Made by a program: the position numbers and the translations under genes
Assembly: GCF_036417355.1 (NCBI RefSeq)
Contig: NZ_CP143889.1
Span: 806,001-870,000 of the forward strand
DNA: 64,000 bases
From: Akkermansia sp. RCC_12PD
GTDB lineage: Bacteria; Verrucomicrobiota; Verrucomicrobiia; Verrucomicrobiales; Akkermansiaceae
Direction of reading: 5' to 3'
Notes under the pieces: model-generated
What the model was told of the DNA's origin: nothing
The model's input: only the letters and a program-made list of their open reading frames with translations
The model's database searches: none
In this document: one piece after another, positions 22,961-28,914 of the stretch
How the letters are laid out: each line of letters opens with the position of its first letter
Numbering within the stretch: the first letter of the stretch is position 1

Positions 22961-24022
22961 CTATCCATGGAGTTCCTCCTTTTCCGGCACTTCCCAGAAC
23001 AGAGCCGCCCTCTCACGGCTTACTCCCTCCATATTCAAGTACCGTGCGCGCAGCAGGGCGGAGGAACGGTGCCCCATTTCCATCTGAAGCAGGGGGAAAT
23101 CCCTGAACCATTTGGCATGGAAGGAAGCGTAGGTATGCCTCAGGACATCCGGCCTCCATGCCCCGAACCTGCCGCCGCTTCCCCACCCTGCTTTTTTCCT
23201 GAGCTGCCTCCAGCGCAGAAGCCAGTTCGATGGACATAAAATCCTGTTCCCTTCCGGAATGCCATACCCCGTCAAAAGCCGTTCCAGCACGGGCTGAACG
23301 GTAACATGGCGCGCGCCGCCCGTCTTGCTTGCCAACGGTCTTACGGAAATCACCCTTTCTTCCAAATCCACATCCCGCCACCGGAGGCGCGCCACCTCTC
23401 CCGGACGGATTCCGGCATACATCATGATCCAGACAGCAGGAGCGCAATCACGGAATTCGGGAGATTCCGCTGCGTTCCTCAGGCATTTTATCTCCTCAGG
23501 ATTCAGTACGGCAATGACCTGCTCACGGAAGGAAGGAACATCCACCCGGGCCAGAGGATTTTCTCCGCACCACCCGCGCCGCAGTGAAAGACTCAAAACC
23601 CCGCTCATTACAGCCCTCGCCTTGTAACGCTGCCTCCCTGAAGAAAAGGCGGATTCCAGAAAACGCGAACAATGCTCCGGAGTCAGTTTCCTGACCGGGA
23701 AGTTCTTTAATTCCGGGCATCTGCGCATCAGCGCGCCGGTAAAGTACCTGATATCCCGCAGGGTGGCGGGGCGCCGCCCGCACTTCACTTTCAGCGTTTC
23801 ATCCACGGCGGCCGCAAAGGATACCGTCTGTTCTCCGTTTTTCAGTTCCTCCGCTCCCAGCTCAATGGCCTTTCTGGCACGGCGCATGCTGCATCGGGAA
23901 CCGCCGCAGAGCTGCACCAGCTCCAGAGCCAGGGTAGCCGCCTCCACTATATTCAGCCCGCTCTCTTTCAACAACATTTCCGCCGCCAAATATTCGGCGC
24001 GATTTTCGATATGTTCCCTCAT
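22961..24022 (-). CDS. Tyrosine recombinase (phage-integrase family) next to an inverted-repeat segment
   Basis: This is a site-specific recombinase of 353 residues from ATG 24022. The SAM-like DNA-binding core (about 60-165) precedes the catalytic domain. There, G-I-R-P-G-E-V-A-R-L-R-W holds Arg I, S-K-T-G-G-A-R-H-V the Lys, L-R-H-T-Y-A-S Arg II, M-G-H-R-S-S-A the His, and R-A-R-Y-L-N-M the nucleophilic Tyr. The residue three before Arg II is Asp rather than the common His. A GTG at 24061 would extend the protein 13 residues into the inverted repeat at 24060-24077, so I prefer ATG 24022. It faces the autotransporter gene across a 172-bp segment flanked by perfect 18-bp inverted repeats, so promoter inversion is its likely job. 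Confidence 0.88.
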   Translation of the reverse strand: MREHIENRAEYLAAEMLLKESGLNIVEAATLALELVQLCGGSRCSMRRARKAIELGAEELKNGEQTVSFAAAVDETLKVKCGRRPATLRDIRYFTGALMRRCPELKNFPVRKLTPEHCSRFLESAFSSGRQRYKARAVMSGVLSLSLRRGWCGENPLARVDVPSFREQVIAVLNPEEIKCLRNAAESPEFRDCAPAVWIMMYAGIRPGEVARLRWRDVDLEERVISVRPLASKTGGARHVTVQPVLERLLTGYGIPEGNRILCPSNWLLRWRQLRKKAGWGSGGRFGAWRPDVLRHTYASFHAKWFRDFPLLQMEMGHRSSALLRARYLNMEGVSRERAALFWEVPEKEELHG

Positions 24023-24059
24023 TCGAGTAATGTAATTGTAAAATAATGTTTTATGCCTC

Positions 24060-24077
24060 ACAGGATTGCCAATCCTG
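24060..24077 (+). repeat. Left 18-bp inverted repeat (candidate recombination site)
   Basis: ACAGGATTGCCAATCCTG is the exact reverse complement of 24250-24267. The unit is itself a palindrome (arms CAGGATTG and CAATCCTG around one central base), so as a direct repeat it matches the right copy with one mismatch at the centre. It lies in the 5' region of the recombinase gene, 38 bases before its ATG. Confidence 0.85.
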
Positions 24078-24249
24078 ATAGCAAGTAAAAAAACTACAAT
24101 ATTTCATATTTTATGGCGGTTTTAGAATTAATTCATCATGTACAAATTTCAATCTATTTGTTAGATTAAAAACATCGACGCTCCCGTCCGGGAAAAAGGA
24201 AAGAGGACTTTCTAACAATATGTAAACGAGACAAATGCATTCACGAACA
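24078..24249. promoter_or_regulatory. Candidate invertible promoter segment, 172 bp
   Basis: This is an AT-rich segment bounded by the perfect inverted repeats and holding no gene. It lies between the divergent starts of the tyrosine recombinase and the autotransporter, where the promoter(s) must be. Inside are a perfect dyad AATCTA-N5-TAGATT (24151-24167), GAATTAATTC (24125-24134) and a short stem TCCCG-tc-CGGGA (24182-24193). I cannot pick one -35/-10 pair with confidence. On the minus strand TTGAAA-N16-TAATTC is a weak candidate. Orientation and phase in this assembly are therefore unknown. Confidence 0.6.
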
Positions 24250-24267
24250 CAGGATTGGCAATCCTGT
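24250..24267 (-). repeat. Right 18-bp inverted repeat (candidate recombination site)
   Basis: CAGGATTGGCAATCCTGT is the exact reverse complement of the left copy at 24060-24077. The match ends abruptly on both sides, as expected for a short recombinase target. It sits 69 bases before the autotransporter ATG, so inversion would swap what lies upstream of that gene. Confidence 0.85.
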
Positions 24268-24278
24268 ATGTAGGTGTT

Positions 24279-24313
24279 GGGAAGAAAAAGGCATTTCTAT
24301 CCTTTTTCTTCCC
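24279..24313 (+). promoter_or_regulatory. Perfect 13-bp stem-loop in the autotransporter leader
   Basis: GGGAAGAAAAAGG (24279-24291) and CCTTTTTCTTCCC (24301-24313) pair perfectly around a 9-base loop, ending 23 bases before the ATG at 24337. No U-run follows, so it is not a standard terminator. A 5' mRNA stabiliser, a translation control element or a block to read-through are all possible. It lies just outside the invertible segment and would stay fixed. Confidence 0.7.
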
Positions 24314-24336
24314 GATGAACACAAACATACCAAATC

Positions 24337-27300
24337 ATGAATCCTCGTTTACCACTACCTCTGCGCCGGGCTTTACTGACAGCCATGTGCGCCCTTGGCT
24401 GCCAGGCTTTCGCAGCCGAATACACCGCTTCCAATCTGGAAGAATTCAAGGAAGCCTGGAACCAGCTTGCTGATGGAGATACGCTCAAGATCACCGGAGC
24501 CATTGACTTCCAGGGAACGGACCTGACGGCATTGCCCGCAGACGCCCGCATCACCCTTGCCTCGGACGGCCATGGCACCGTCTCCAATTTCAACTACGGG
24601 GACATGTCCTCAGTCTCCATGCAGAATGTGAATGTAGCAGGGACGGGAACCGTCCGGGTCGGCAACATGACGGACGGCATGCTCAGCGGAACGGATGAAA
24701 GTGGAATCATCCTTTCCATAGAAAGCGGCTCCACCCTGGACGGCACATGGTTGTTGCTGGAAAACAACAAGCTGGTAGCGGGAGACGGCGTCTTTCTTGA
24801 CGGCAACAATGTCACCACCGGACATTCCACCTCCATAGAGACAAGAATCGACCCCGAAACGGGAGCCTTCATCTCCACGGTTGTCACCAATACTCCGGGA
24901 GAAATTGCCATGGAACTGGGAAAGGATGTCTGGATTGATGAAATGGACTTGTCCATGGACGACGGCGTCCGCGGTAAAATTGTCTCCCATGGAGATATTT
25001 CCCTGTCCGATTCCACTCTCATCTCCACTGGGGCCGTCAACACGACATCCGTTTATGAAGACGAAGATTCCAAGATCCTGATCGGCAAGTCGGAATCCGT
25101 GGGAGCCACGGGGGGCATCGATTTCAGTGCCGGCGCCGTTACGATGACTGATACCGATCTGAGTACGGCAGGAGACGGCGACCTCTATACCGGCGGCGAC
25201 ATTCTCCTGGGAGACGGCAGCGACATTTCCGCCACGGACCGGGCGGAAATCACCACGGGAGCCCTGGTGCTCGCGTCCGGCATTTCCATCCAGGACAACC
25301 AGGGCCGCTACCAGCCCGGAACCAGCATTCAGGAATCCATGGGGCTGTCCGGCGACATATTCATCGGCAGCAACAGCTCCATCGAAAATTATGATCTGGA
25401 TGCCGAAGGCTCCATCTTCATAGGAAATGGCGCGGAACTGACCTCTGTCACGCTGGACGCCATTTCCGTGGAACTGGATTCCGTCTCCATCTTTGAAAAG
25501 GAAGACGGCTCCCGAACCGTACACATGACCACTGCCGTGGGCGACCAGGCCACTGTTTCCATCGGCGACCATTCCACGCTGAATGACGTGGACATTTACG
25601 CAGAGGGCGGAGACATCTACATTGGCAGCAACACCACCATCACCGGGGACAACGACCTTTCCGGCAGCCAGATGGCCGACATCTGGGCGGCGGATACGGT
25701 GGGAGATATCGACGATGAAGGCGTTTCCACCCGCGGGACCATTTCCTTTGAAGGAACGCTCAAGCAGGATGCGGAGGGCGACTACGTTCTGGCCTCCGGA
25801 GAATACAGCGAAGGCACCTACGGGGGCAGCATCGTCATCGGCAACAACGTCACCCTGACCATGACCACCGTCGCGGCGGAAAATACCATCACGCTGGGTG
25901 ACAACGTCACCTACCAGGGAACGGAAGATGCCTCCGTTTACCACATGAGCGCCTTCAGCGACTCGGACAACAGCCTCATCCAGGCCAGCATCAGGGACAC
26001 GGATGAAAATGGAAACATCCTCAACGGGACCGTCACCATTACGGAGCGTGAGAACAAAATCACCACGGGCCGCAACAATACGTTCATGAACAGCACGGCT
26101 CCGGGCAGGTCCGCCGCCATGGATATTTCCAGAGGGGGAGCCCTGTATGCGCATGGAGACATCGTGATCGGAGAAAACAACCGTTTCATTGACAACTCGG
26201 CCTCCGGGTCCGGGGGCGCCGTTTTTGCCCAGAACAACATTGCCGAGACAATGACCTACGTTGACGGGGAACGGACCTCCAAACTGACCACGGAAGTTCT
26301 GGACATCGTCGTAGGCAACGGTTCCGTCTTCTCCGGCAACCGGGCCGGAGTCAACGGAGGCGCCATCGCCTCCGAACTGACGGCCAACCTGGCCTGGCAG
26401 GAAGGCGACAATGTGGACGACCTTTTCGAAAACGAAGGAGCCAATATCTGGCTCGGTAAAAACACGGTTTTCACGGATAATACCGCGGGCAGCCTTGGCG
26501 GCGCCATTCACCTGATGGAAGACCGCCTTCTGGTCATCGACTCCGGTTCCTTCTTCGACGGCAACATGGCGGGAGGTGAAGCCAATGACATTTTTGCCGA
26601 AGATGGAGCTGCCATCGTAGTCAATACCGACGCGGACGCAACCACCGTCATCAACAGCGGCATTTCCGACGCCGACTATTTCACCCTGGATGACGATCCG
26701 GAATGGGTCCGCGGATCCGCCAGCCTGGTCCAGCTGGGAGGCGGCAACCTGCTCTATGGCGGCAGAGACCAGGAAGACAACGGATTCGGCGGCGACTTCC
26801 TCCAGTATTCCGGAGCCGGTTCCCTGATCGTGGGCCATGTGGCCGAAATTGACAACGAACTTGTCGTGGAAGGCGCCCAACTGGGCGTTGAAGACCTGAC
26901 GGACTATGAAATCAACGGCAAGGGCATCATCCTGACGGACAATTCCACCCTGGCCGGCGATACGCTGGAACTCAACGGGAATGCCGTGGTGGAAGTGGGG
27001 GAAGGCTCCTCCCTGCTGCTCAACGACATCACGTTCAACGGCAATTCCTCCGTCAAGCTCTGGCACACTGACGAAGCGGGCAATGGACGGGATCTTACCC
27101 ACACGGCCTCCGGCATCTCATCCGTGGACAACGTTACCATTACCGGGGCGGATGCGGCCGGGCTGCCCCTGTTCAACTCCGCCTTCGTTTCCACAACGGC
27201 CGCCGCCAATGAGGACGGCACCATCCGGCTGTCCCAGAACATGAAAGGCGTGGCTTCTCCCATGCAGGGATATTCCGGCAACGTTTCCGGAGTGGCGGCA

Positions 27301-28416
27301 GGCATGGAGCAGGTCCGGATGAACGTGCGGGACGGCTCCGCCGCCCACAGGTTCTTTGAAAACCTGCTGGGAACCTCCAGCGCGGATGCCGCGGCAGCCA
27401 TGATCCAGTCCGTCAGCGGAGAAACCGTAGTCAATGCGGCCTGGGCCTCCAATGACGCCCTCAAGGGCTTTGCGTCCCTCGTCCGGACGCAGGGGGCACT
27501 TTCCGCAGCCCAGGGTCTGAACAGCCCGGCTGCCAGGCCCATGCAGGCCGTGGATGCCAAGGGTTCCCCCATCGCCATGGCTCCCGTAGCCTCCGGCCGC
27601 GGCTCCGTATGGGTTGGCGGACTGGGCTCCTGGACGGACCAGAACGCCCGCCACGGCATTGACGGGTACAAGTACGATGCGGGCGGCTATGCCGTCGGCG
27701 CGGACTTCAAGCTCTCCTCTTCCGCCCTGGCGGGGGTGGCCGTCGGCCAGTCTTTCGGCACTTTCCAGGACAAGGGAGGCTTCTCCAGCTATGATGCGGA
27801 TTCCTTCATGGCCATGGCCTACGGCCGCTATACTCCCTCCCGCAACAAGAAACTGACCCTGGACGGATACGCCGCCTTCGGCACCACCTCCTTTGACGGA
27901 AACGCCCGCGTAGCAGATACCTCCGCCCATGGGGAGTTTGACGCGGACTCTTTCGGAGCGGCTGTTTACGCCACCTGGACGGAAGAGCTGGAGAACAAGC
28001 TGGTTATCGCACCCTTTGCCGGGCTGGAATTCATGACCGGGAAGACGGACAGCTTCACTGAAAGCGGCGACCTGGCACGCACCTTCAGCGGAGCCCGCGC
28101 CCAGAACTGGACTCTGCCCGTAGGCATTACCGTGTCCCGTACCTTTGCGGTAGGTACCAAGACCACCCTGACACCCGGAATCACAGTGGCTGTGGCACAG
28201 GACCTCAGCCGCATCAATCCCAAGGGCACGGTCGGCAGCGATCTGGGATCCTGGACGGCACGCGGCATCAATAAGGGGCGCACGGCCCTGCGCGTCAACG
28301 CCGGAGTCAGCGCCACCTTCGGCAGCCGCTGGAGCGCCCGCATCGGGTACTCCCTGGAAAGCCGAGCCGGCCTGACAGCCCAAGGCATCAACGGCTCCGT
28401 CAGCTACTCGTTCTAA
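24337..28416 (+). CDS. Large autotransporter with Pmp-like repeats (type V secretion)
   Basis: The protein has 1359 residues. Its signal peptide is M-N-P-R-L-P-L-P-L-R-R-A-L-L-T-A-M-C-A-L-G-C-Q-A-F-A-A. Residues 30-1000 are a predicted beta-helix passenger built from short Gly/Asn/Asp/Thr-rich repeats (such as I-x-I-G-x-N-x-x-I/L). Residues about 610-745 contain FxxN and GGA(I/V) tetrapeptides (F-I-D-N...G-G-A-V, F-S-G-N...G-G-A-I, F-T-D-N...G-G-A-I), the hallmark of chlamydial polymorphic membrane proteins. The last 270 residues form a 12-strand type beta-barrel, starting near V-W-V-G-G-L-G-S-W and ending in the aromatic S-V-S-Y-S-F. It is likely a surface adhesin. Expression may be switched by the adjacent recombinase and inverted repeats. 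Confidence 0.92.
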   Translation: MNPRLPLPLRRALLTAMCALGCQAFAAEYTASNLEEFKEAWNQLADGDTLKITGAIDFQGTDLTALPADARITLASDGHGTVSNFNYGDMSSVSMQNVNVAGTGTVRVGNMTDGMLSGTDESGIILSIESGSTLDGTWLLLENNKLVAGDGVFLDGNNVTTGHSTSIETRIDPETGAFISTVVTNTPGEIAMELGKDVWIDEMDLSMDDGVRGKIVSHGDISLSDSTLISTGAVNTTSVYEDEDSKILIGKSESVGATGGIDFSAGAVTMTDTDLSTAGDGDLYTGGDILLGDGSDISATDRAEITTGALVLASGISIQDNQGRYQPGTSIQESMGLSGDIFIGSNSSIENYDLDAEGSIFIGNGAELTSVTLDAISVELDSVSIFEKEDGSRTVHMTTAVGDQATVSIGDHSTLNDVDIYAEGGDIYIGSNTTITGDNDLSGSQMADIWAADTVGDIDDEGVSTRGTISFEGTLKQDAEGDYVLASGEYSEGTYGGSIVIGNNVTLTMTTVAAENTITLGDNVTYQGTEDASVYHMSAFSDSDNSLIQASIRDTDENGNILNGTVTITERENKITTGRNNTFMNSTAPGRSAAMDISRGGALYAHGDIVIGENNRFIDNSASGSGGAVFAQNNIAETMTYVDGERTSKLTTEVLDIVVGNGSVFSGNRAGVNGGAIASELTANLAWQEGDNVDDLFENEGANIWLGKNTVFTDNTAGSLGGAIHLMEDRLLVIDSGSFFDGNMAGGEANDIFAEDGAAIVVNTDADATTVINSGISDADYFTLDDDPEWVRGSASLVQLGGGNLLYGGRDQEDNGFGGDFLQYSGAGSLIVGHVAEIDNELVVEGAQLGVEDLTDYEINGKGIILTDNSTLAGDTLELNGNAVVEVGEGSSLLLNDITFNGNSSVKLWHTDEAGNGRDLTHTASGISSVDNVTITGADAAGLPLFNSAFVSTTAAANEDGTIRLSQNMKGVASPMQGYSGNVSGVAAGMEQVRMNVRDGSAAHRFFENLLGTSSADAAAAMIQSVSGETVVNAAWASNDALKGFASLVRTQGALSAAQGLNSPAARPMQAVDAKGSPIAMAPVASGRGSVWVGGLGSWTDQNARHGIDGYKYDAGGYAVGADFKLSSSALAGVAVGQSFGTFQDKGGFSSYDADSFMAMAYGRYTPSRNKKLTLDGYAAFGTTSFDGNARVADTSAHGEFDADSFGAAVYATWTEELENKLVIAPFAGLEFMTGKTDSFTESGDLARTFSGARAQNWTLPVGITVSRTFAVGTKTTLTPGITVAVAQDLSRINPKGTVGSDLGSWTARGINKGRTALRVNAGVSATFGSRWSARIGYSLESRAGLTAQGINGSVSYSF

Positions 28417-28470: not shown

Positions 28471-28491
28471 TACTTGGACATATTCTTTTCC

Positions 28492-28914
28492 ATGAACTCA
28501 TCAACCTCAATCCGCCCCGCCATTCTTCTGGGCTGCGCATGTCTGCTGGCTTCCTGCGGCGGCGGTGCCGGCAAATCGGACTCATCCGCCGTGGCCCCTC
28601 CGCAGACGCTGGAAACAGACAGCACCATCGTGATGACGGACGGCCACGGCGTATCCTACAAAATCACCTCGTCCAGCACCCTGGAAACGGGTGACGGCAT
28701 CTTTTCCGGAACATACACGTATGCGCCCGGCGCCGCTTCCGCCCGGTTTTCCATGACACTGACCGAGAAAGACCGCGAACATCCCCGGACCGTTAAAAGT
28801 TCCGGAGAAATGACCTTTACCTCCGCCACGGAAGGAACTTACAAGGTAACAGACTATGATTCCTCCGCCATGTCTCCGGTAGGCCTGGGCGGCCCCTTCA
28901 GGATCACCAGGTAA
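28492..28914 (+). CDS. Small lipoprotein, function unknown
   Basis: The protein has 140 residues. A lipoprotein signal ends in the lipobox L-A-S-C followed by G-G-G, so it should be lipid-anchored after processing by Lgt (gene at 40.2 kb) and LspA. The mature part is Thr/Ser-rich with alternating polar and aromatic residues, typical of a small beta-barrel or beta-sandwich. No recognised motif. I start at ATG 28492 rather than TTG 28474, which lies within the leader after the terminator. It has its own terminator and seems to be monocistronic. Confidence 0.75.
   Translation: MNSSTSIRPAILLGCACLLASCGGGAGKSDSSAVAPPQTLETDSTIVMTDGHGVSYKITSSSTLETGDGIFSGTYTYAPGAASARFSMTLTEKDREHPRTVKSSGEMTFTSATEGTYKVTDYDSSAMSPVGLGGPFRITR

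Follow-up and report, generated by a model that had tools for sequence, protein, structure and literature searches.

The locus lies in a 64,000-nucleotide stretch of the Akkermansia sp. RCC_12PD genome (the window), in which a tyrosine recombinase gene and an autotransporter gene, read away from each other, flank an exact pair of 18-bp inverted repeats. Its features are as follows.

22961-24022, minus strand: 353-aa tyrosine recombinase (start at ATG 24022), probable dedicated invertase (Pfam PF00589; paralogue and orthologue alignments)
24060-24077: left inverted repeat, putative crossover site, core GGATT-GCC-AATCC
24078-24249: putative invertible segment, 172 bp; two ends conserved and middle variable in a six-species alignment
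24079-24084, minus strand: -35-like hexamer TTGCTA (TTGATA in G119), facing the recombinase; conserved in six species
24250-24267: right inverted repeat, putative crossover site, core GGATT-GGC-AATCC
24267-24272, plus strand: -10-like hexamer TATGTA (TACATA in G113 and G119), on the fixed autotransporter-side flank, with TA at +3 outside the core; conserved in six species
24337-28416, plus strand: Pmp-like autotransporter, 1359 aa, proposed switched gene (Pfam, NCBIfam)

Genes and repeats at the locus

A sequence-only reading had taken the flanking open reading frames to be a tyrosine recombinase (22961-24061, minus strand) and a 1359-aa autotransporter (24337-28416, plus strand), and Pfam agrees on both. 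As listed, the recombinase frame opens at a GTG (24061) inside the left repeat; the ATG at 24022 is the more likely start, since every aligned orthologue carries Met at that position. The protein matches Phage_integrase (PF00589, 1.3e-11), and alignments with paralogues and orthologues show the catalytic residues R206, K233, R295, H318 and Y328 to be present, with Asp292 replacing the usual His-II, as it does in all aligned Akkermansia relatives. Orthologues in five other species are 75-93% identical to it; its paralogues, from which it branches separately, are 44-48% identical. A structure model whose core domains are predicted with good confidence is similar to XerA, Tn1549 Int and lambda Int, and XerA is the nearest both in sequence and in fold. 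Against the NCBIfam Xer equivalogs, the protein scores 47.6 bits where the XerA cut-off is 220, and it falls likewise far below those of XerC and XerD.

The autotransporter comprises a signal peptide, a passenger with FxxN and GGA(I,V) repeats and a C-terminal beta-barrel, and matches Pfam Autotransporter (PF03797; 1.5e-44, 153 bits), Chlam_PMP and TIGR01376 (31.5 over a cut-off of 15). Directly 3' of it, on the same strand, lies a 146-aa open reading frame (28474-28914) with a signal peptide and a lipobox-like start, GCACLLASCG, for which Pfam gave no match.

The left arm (24060-24077) reads ACAGGATTGCCAATCCTG and the right arm (24250-24267) reads CAGGATTGGCAATCCTGT; the two are 18 nt long, 100% complementary and separated by 172 nt, in agreement with the earlier reading. 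The symmetry that it described is likewise present, each arm being a 17-bp palindrome centred on one base, such that the pair can also be read as direct repeats with one mismatch (18/19). Deletion by direct repeat was judged unlikely; from one species to another the two sites vary together. The chance of an exact 18-bp inverted pair less than 300 bp apart is about 3e-4 per 64 kb (by arithmetic, with equal base frequencies). With up to three mismatches allowed, the two arms are the only copies in the window (0.23 expected; two reached in 2 of 100 shuffles), and across the 3.17-Mb genome they are the only exact copies, joined by one site with two mismatches. A separate perfect 13-bp inverted repeat with a 9-nt loop (GGGAAGAAAAAGG / CCTTTTTCTTCCC, 24279-24313) is located in the autotransporter leader, directly past the predicted -10.

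A genus-wide family of sites

The core GGATT-NNN-AATCC occurs at 62 sites in this genome (reversed control pattern, 0), most of which pair up 148-317 bp apart. A search of seven genomes for pairs with a gap of 150-180 bp returned 64 pairs, each beginning with the same 13-mer on both strands; the inverton lists used here and below were built from site searches and fetched regions, and their counts are not exhaustive. The published inverted-repeat motif of Akkermansia muciniphila invertons is CGGATT..AATCCG (Jiang et al. 2019, as quoted in PMC13343947), and the main-text passages of PMC11892184 report that inverton group 138 matches this motif and that members of the class flip in mice. The published coordinates of the invertons that switch in mice match no site in G119, from which we take the assembly numbering to differ. 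In the window, the pair consists of inverted GGATT-NNN-AATCC cores with matched triplets at a spacing inside 100-340 bp, with A and T where the published motif has its outer C and G, as is true of all six orthologues. Judged by sequence, the window sites are a variant of the Akkermansia CGGATT..AATCCG class.

Within the class, the central triplets of the two sites of a pair are reverse-complementary in 79 of 81 neighbouring exact pairs from the fetched loci (shuffle mean 3.4, maximum 11), and the two exceptions each pair a site of one inverton with a site of its neighbour; 25 triplet classes are in use. At G000:C1:481313-481494 and 481724-481907, two invertons stand in tandem and their inner sites carry unmatched triplets (TAT and AGT), in line with the triplets acting as addresses. 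Another class of site is represented at G128:C6:1672-1999 by a CAGTATT-NNN-AATACTG pair 311 bp apart, with a related palindrome between.

A proposed promoter split across the sites

Many genes that flank the sites start 12-70 bp away, so that a promoter would need to reach into or across the site. In six genomes, TTG lies exactly 8 nt inside the GGATT core at 85 of 198 ends (about 6 at neighbouring offsets), and TTGAC at the same offset at 55 of 198 (about 0 at neighbouring offsets), with a TTGACA-like hexamer at exactly one end in 74 of 99 pairs. Outside the core, TA at +3 is found at 32% of the ends with a TTGACA-like hexamer and 48% of those without, compared with about 5% elsewhere. The same two signals are seen in this genome alone, with TTG exactly 8 nt inside the core at 30 of 72 ends (1.3 expected; P 6e-33) and TA exactly at +3 outside at 26 of 72 (4.6 expected; P 1.5e-13). 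TA at +3 is also tied to genes, being present in 57% of the flanks that face a gene start within 120 bp and 20% of the others (Fisher, 5e-7). When the bases are counted, TTGACN is separated from TANNNT by 17 bp, a spacer that the recombination site fills; 17 bp is the standard sigma-70 spacing between -35 and -10. The composite TTGAC-NN-CGGATTNNNAATCCG occurs in 26 of 76 Akkermansia genomes at up to 40 copies each (reversed control, 0) and in none of 184 genomes from the family's other genera. The class repeats therefore appear, from these base positions, to sit within the promoter, with the -35 in the segment and the -10 outside, at dozens of invertons in the genome.

The capsule inverton follows this geometry. 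In G119, which we take to be the A. muciniphila type strain (as the wza coordinates in PMC13343947 support), it carries TTGACA at one end and, on the wza side, TAATTA just beyond the other site; flipping would give TTGACA-17-TAATTA, and as assembled the inverton would be OFF. The -35 of the capsule inverton (G000:C1:2668041-2668221) is on the wbaP side in G000, G028, G113 and G063, where it is predicted ON, and on the side opposite to wbaP in G119 (G119:C1:2526111-2526290), where it is predicted OFF.

At the window locus, TTG is 9 nt inside the core, one off the 8 of the family, and TA at +3 is present on the autotransporter side and absent from the recombinase-side flank. The inverted segment would present TTGCTA-18 bp-TATGTA towards the autotransporter, with a spacer one base over the family rule; TTGCTA is a weaker -35 than the TTGAC of the family, and TATGTA matches TATAAT at 3 of 6 positions. 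A scan of 23950-24400 for sigma-70-like promoters gave one, on the minus strand, no more than in shuffles. The autotransporter is predicted to be OFF in the orientation of the window because TTGCTA faces the recombinase, whose flank has no TA at +3; we hold this assignment with less confidence than the family rule because the spacer is one base longer and the -10 weak. The promoter or promoters that had been expected inside the segment would lie there only in part, with the -35 half inside and the -10 half outside; the segment probably does not hold a whole promoter, although a non-consensus one may be present in it.

Orthologues and orientation

Only six Akkermansia genomes have a close recombinase, and these constitute the orthologue set; in G119 the orthologous site pair is at G119:C1:1332964-1333164. 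In all six species the recombinase, sites and autotransporter (1355-1360 aa) occur together and intact, and distant species have conserved sequence on either side of the locus. Three species have the central triplets GCC/GGC, one has GAC/GTC and two have GTT/AAC, the arms always matched, and orthologues of the 290535 inverton show the same concerted change (AGA, AGG, GTG, GCA). Such concerted change in two arms is what strand exchange between the sites would require.

Between this genome (G000) and its sister species G028, 7 of 15 comparable invertons with alignable interiors are flipped and 8 are not. At the window locus the repeats and both genes are kept in six species; a flipped orthologue of the segment was found in none of them. 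At even odds, agreement in orientation across all six species has a probability of about 0.03, and the switch is so far to be regarded as biased, rarely flipping or locked; a bias of the enzyme to OFF, or expression of the recombinase in one state only, would explain the uniform orientation. The proposal that the locus is a phase-variation unit is nevertheless well supported at the level of sequence comparison, by its place in a known inverton class, the concerted change of its sites and the sister invertons of the class that are flipped between related genomes.

Which recombinase acts

Relatives of the recombinase are present in all 76 Akkermansia genomes. One conserved form, without an adjacent pair (G000:C1:108718-109773), probably serves the bulk of the sites in trans, because it is the sole member in G063, a genome with at least 15 site pairs. 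Other family recombinases adjoin pairs of their own, most with the -35 end turned to the recombinase. Most bulk sites have C/G beside the GGATT core, whereas the window sites have A/T, kept in six species along with the adjacent recombinase; in G144, the A/T site class is also found beside a recombinase. The window recombinase is probably dedicated to its adjacent pair. At G000:C1:2337623-2338591, a relative is present in two separate pieces and may be interrupted or degenerate.

Proposed switch and alternatives

We consider it highly probable that the locus is a self-contained ON/OFF inverton for the autotransporter, with a dedicated enzyme, a split promoter and a triplet address, and that it is now OFF. 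The sequences themselves show the repeats, their class membership, the co-varying triplets, flipped members of the class, its promoter geometry and the intact genes. We infer flipping at the locus and the enzyme that acts, along with the activity of the promoter, the address role of the triplet and the OFF state. In the proposed mechanism, the adjacent and probably dedicated tyrosine recombinase would recombine the two 18-bp sites and invert the 172-bp segment. As the sites are predicted to lie inside the promoter spacer, the TTGCTA -35 would ride on the segment while the TATGTA -10 keeps its place next to the autotransporter. In the present orientation the -35 is turned towards the recombinase, where it would meet no -10, leaving the autotransporter OFF; inversion would switch the gene ON by assembling TTGCTA-18 bp-TATGTA some 65 bp upstream of its start codon. 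As an address, the central triplet would let each site find its own partner rather than a site of any of the dozens of other invertons.

Three alternatives keep an inversion, past or present. The segment could invert with a complete promoter inside it, in the fim or Bacteroides style, the -35/-10 split being accidental here. Its ends are conserved over six species with room for a full promoter, and the spacing here is one base off that of the family; we consider this unlikely, given the single minus-strand hit of the promoter scan, no better than shuffles, and family-wide TTG and TA offsets that are sharp to the base. Catalysis by the genus-wide core invertase in place of the adjacent recombinase is an improbable reading as well: trans service by that enzyme is probable in G063, but the A/T sites have been conserved with the adjacent recombinase in six species, most bulk sites are C/G and the A/T class of G144 also lies beside a recombinase. 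It is more doubtful still that the switch is degenerate, formerly active and now fixed in one orientation. The shared orientation of all six species would fit a locked switch, yet recombinase and autotransporter are intact in every one of them and matched changes of the triplets have continued, suggesting recombination after the species split.

The other two alternatives, in which the repeats are not sites of inversion at all, have very little in their favour. Arms that are each palindromic have the normal form of an operator, and the pair might bind a dimeric regulator and never recombine. An operator pair needs no reverse-complementary asymmetric triplets, however, and these are found in every species and in 79 of 81 pairs of a class whose members have been seen flipped, making this reading highly implausible. 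The Pfam name Phage_integrase could likewise suggest a phage- or element-type integrase acting on a distant att site, with the repeats unrelated. In the Akkermansia family, however, some recombinase genes are no more than about 70 bp from such a pair, and the locus has conserved flanks on both sides in distant species, such that we give a distant att site hardly any credence. The self-contained inverton remains the preferred reading.

Comparison with known systems

Bacteroides Mpi-type invertible promoters resemble the Akkermansia arrangement in that one genome has many invertons with one inverted-repeat class; their repeat sequence and promoter type differ, and the promoter is wholly inside the segment. 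With fim-type switches, including that of E. coli UpaE (PMC6083910), the window locus shares a tyrosine recombinase, short inverted repeats and a surface or autotransporter gene, but that report describes an invertible element that contains the promoter, whereas only the -35 part is predicted inside the segment here. The cps1 capsule inverton of A. muciniphila has the same core and split geometry (TTGACA inside, TAATTA outside) and, according to main-text passages of PMC13343947, flips with an ON/OFF phenotype; unlike the window locus it controls a capsule operon, and that main text mentions no adjacent recombinase gene. With the Akkermansia CGGATT..AATCCG invertons in general, the window locus has in common the 13-bp core, palindromic arms, a spacing of about 150-320 bp and a place beside surface-protein genes (one published member is near autotransporter genes); it differs in having A/T as outer bases where the others have C/G, a neighbouring recombinase of its own, a -35 shifted by one base and a single orientation in the six species compared.

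We lean towards a genus-specific system of dozens of split promoters in which the recombination site is the 17-bp spacer, a mobile -35 can serve either flank and a 3-bp address guards against cross-recombination, with the window locus as a private branch that has its own enzyme and site variant. Our search of the literature on invertible elements returned no description of a split promoter, and two papers that cite the motif are silent on it in their main-text passages; it may be known already from the original Akkermansia motif paper (Jiang et al. 2019).

Akkermansia is a much-studied gut bacterium, and a switched autotransporter would make individual cells differ in a surface trait. If the split-promoter rule is right, it would link the inverted-repeat motif published for the genus to its promoters, make the ON/OFF state of dozens of surface genes readable from a genome or metagenome and indicate the exact bases to mutate for phase-locked strains. 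The matched triplets would offer a natural test of how many inversions can be run by one chemistry with no chromosome-scale accidents.
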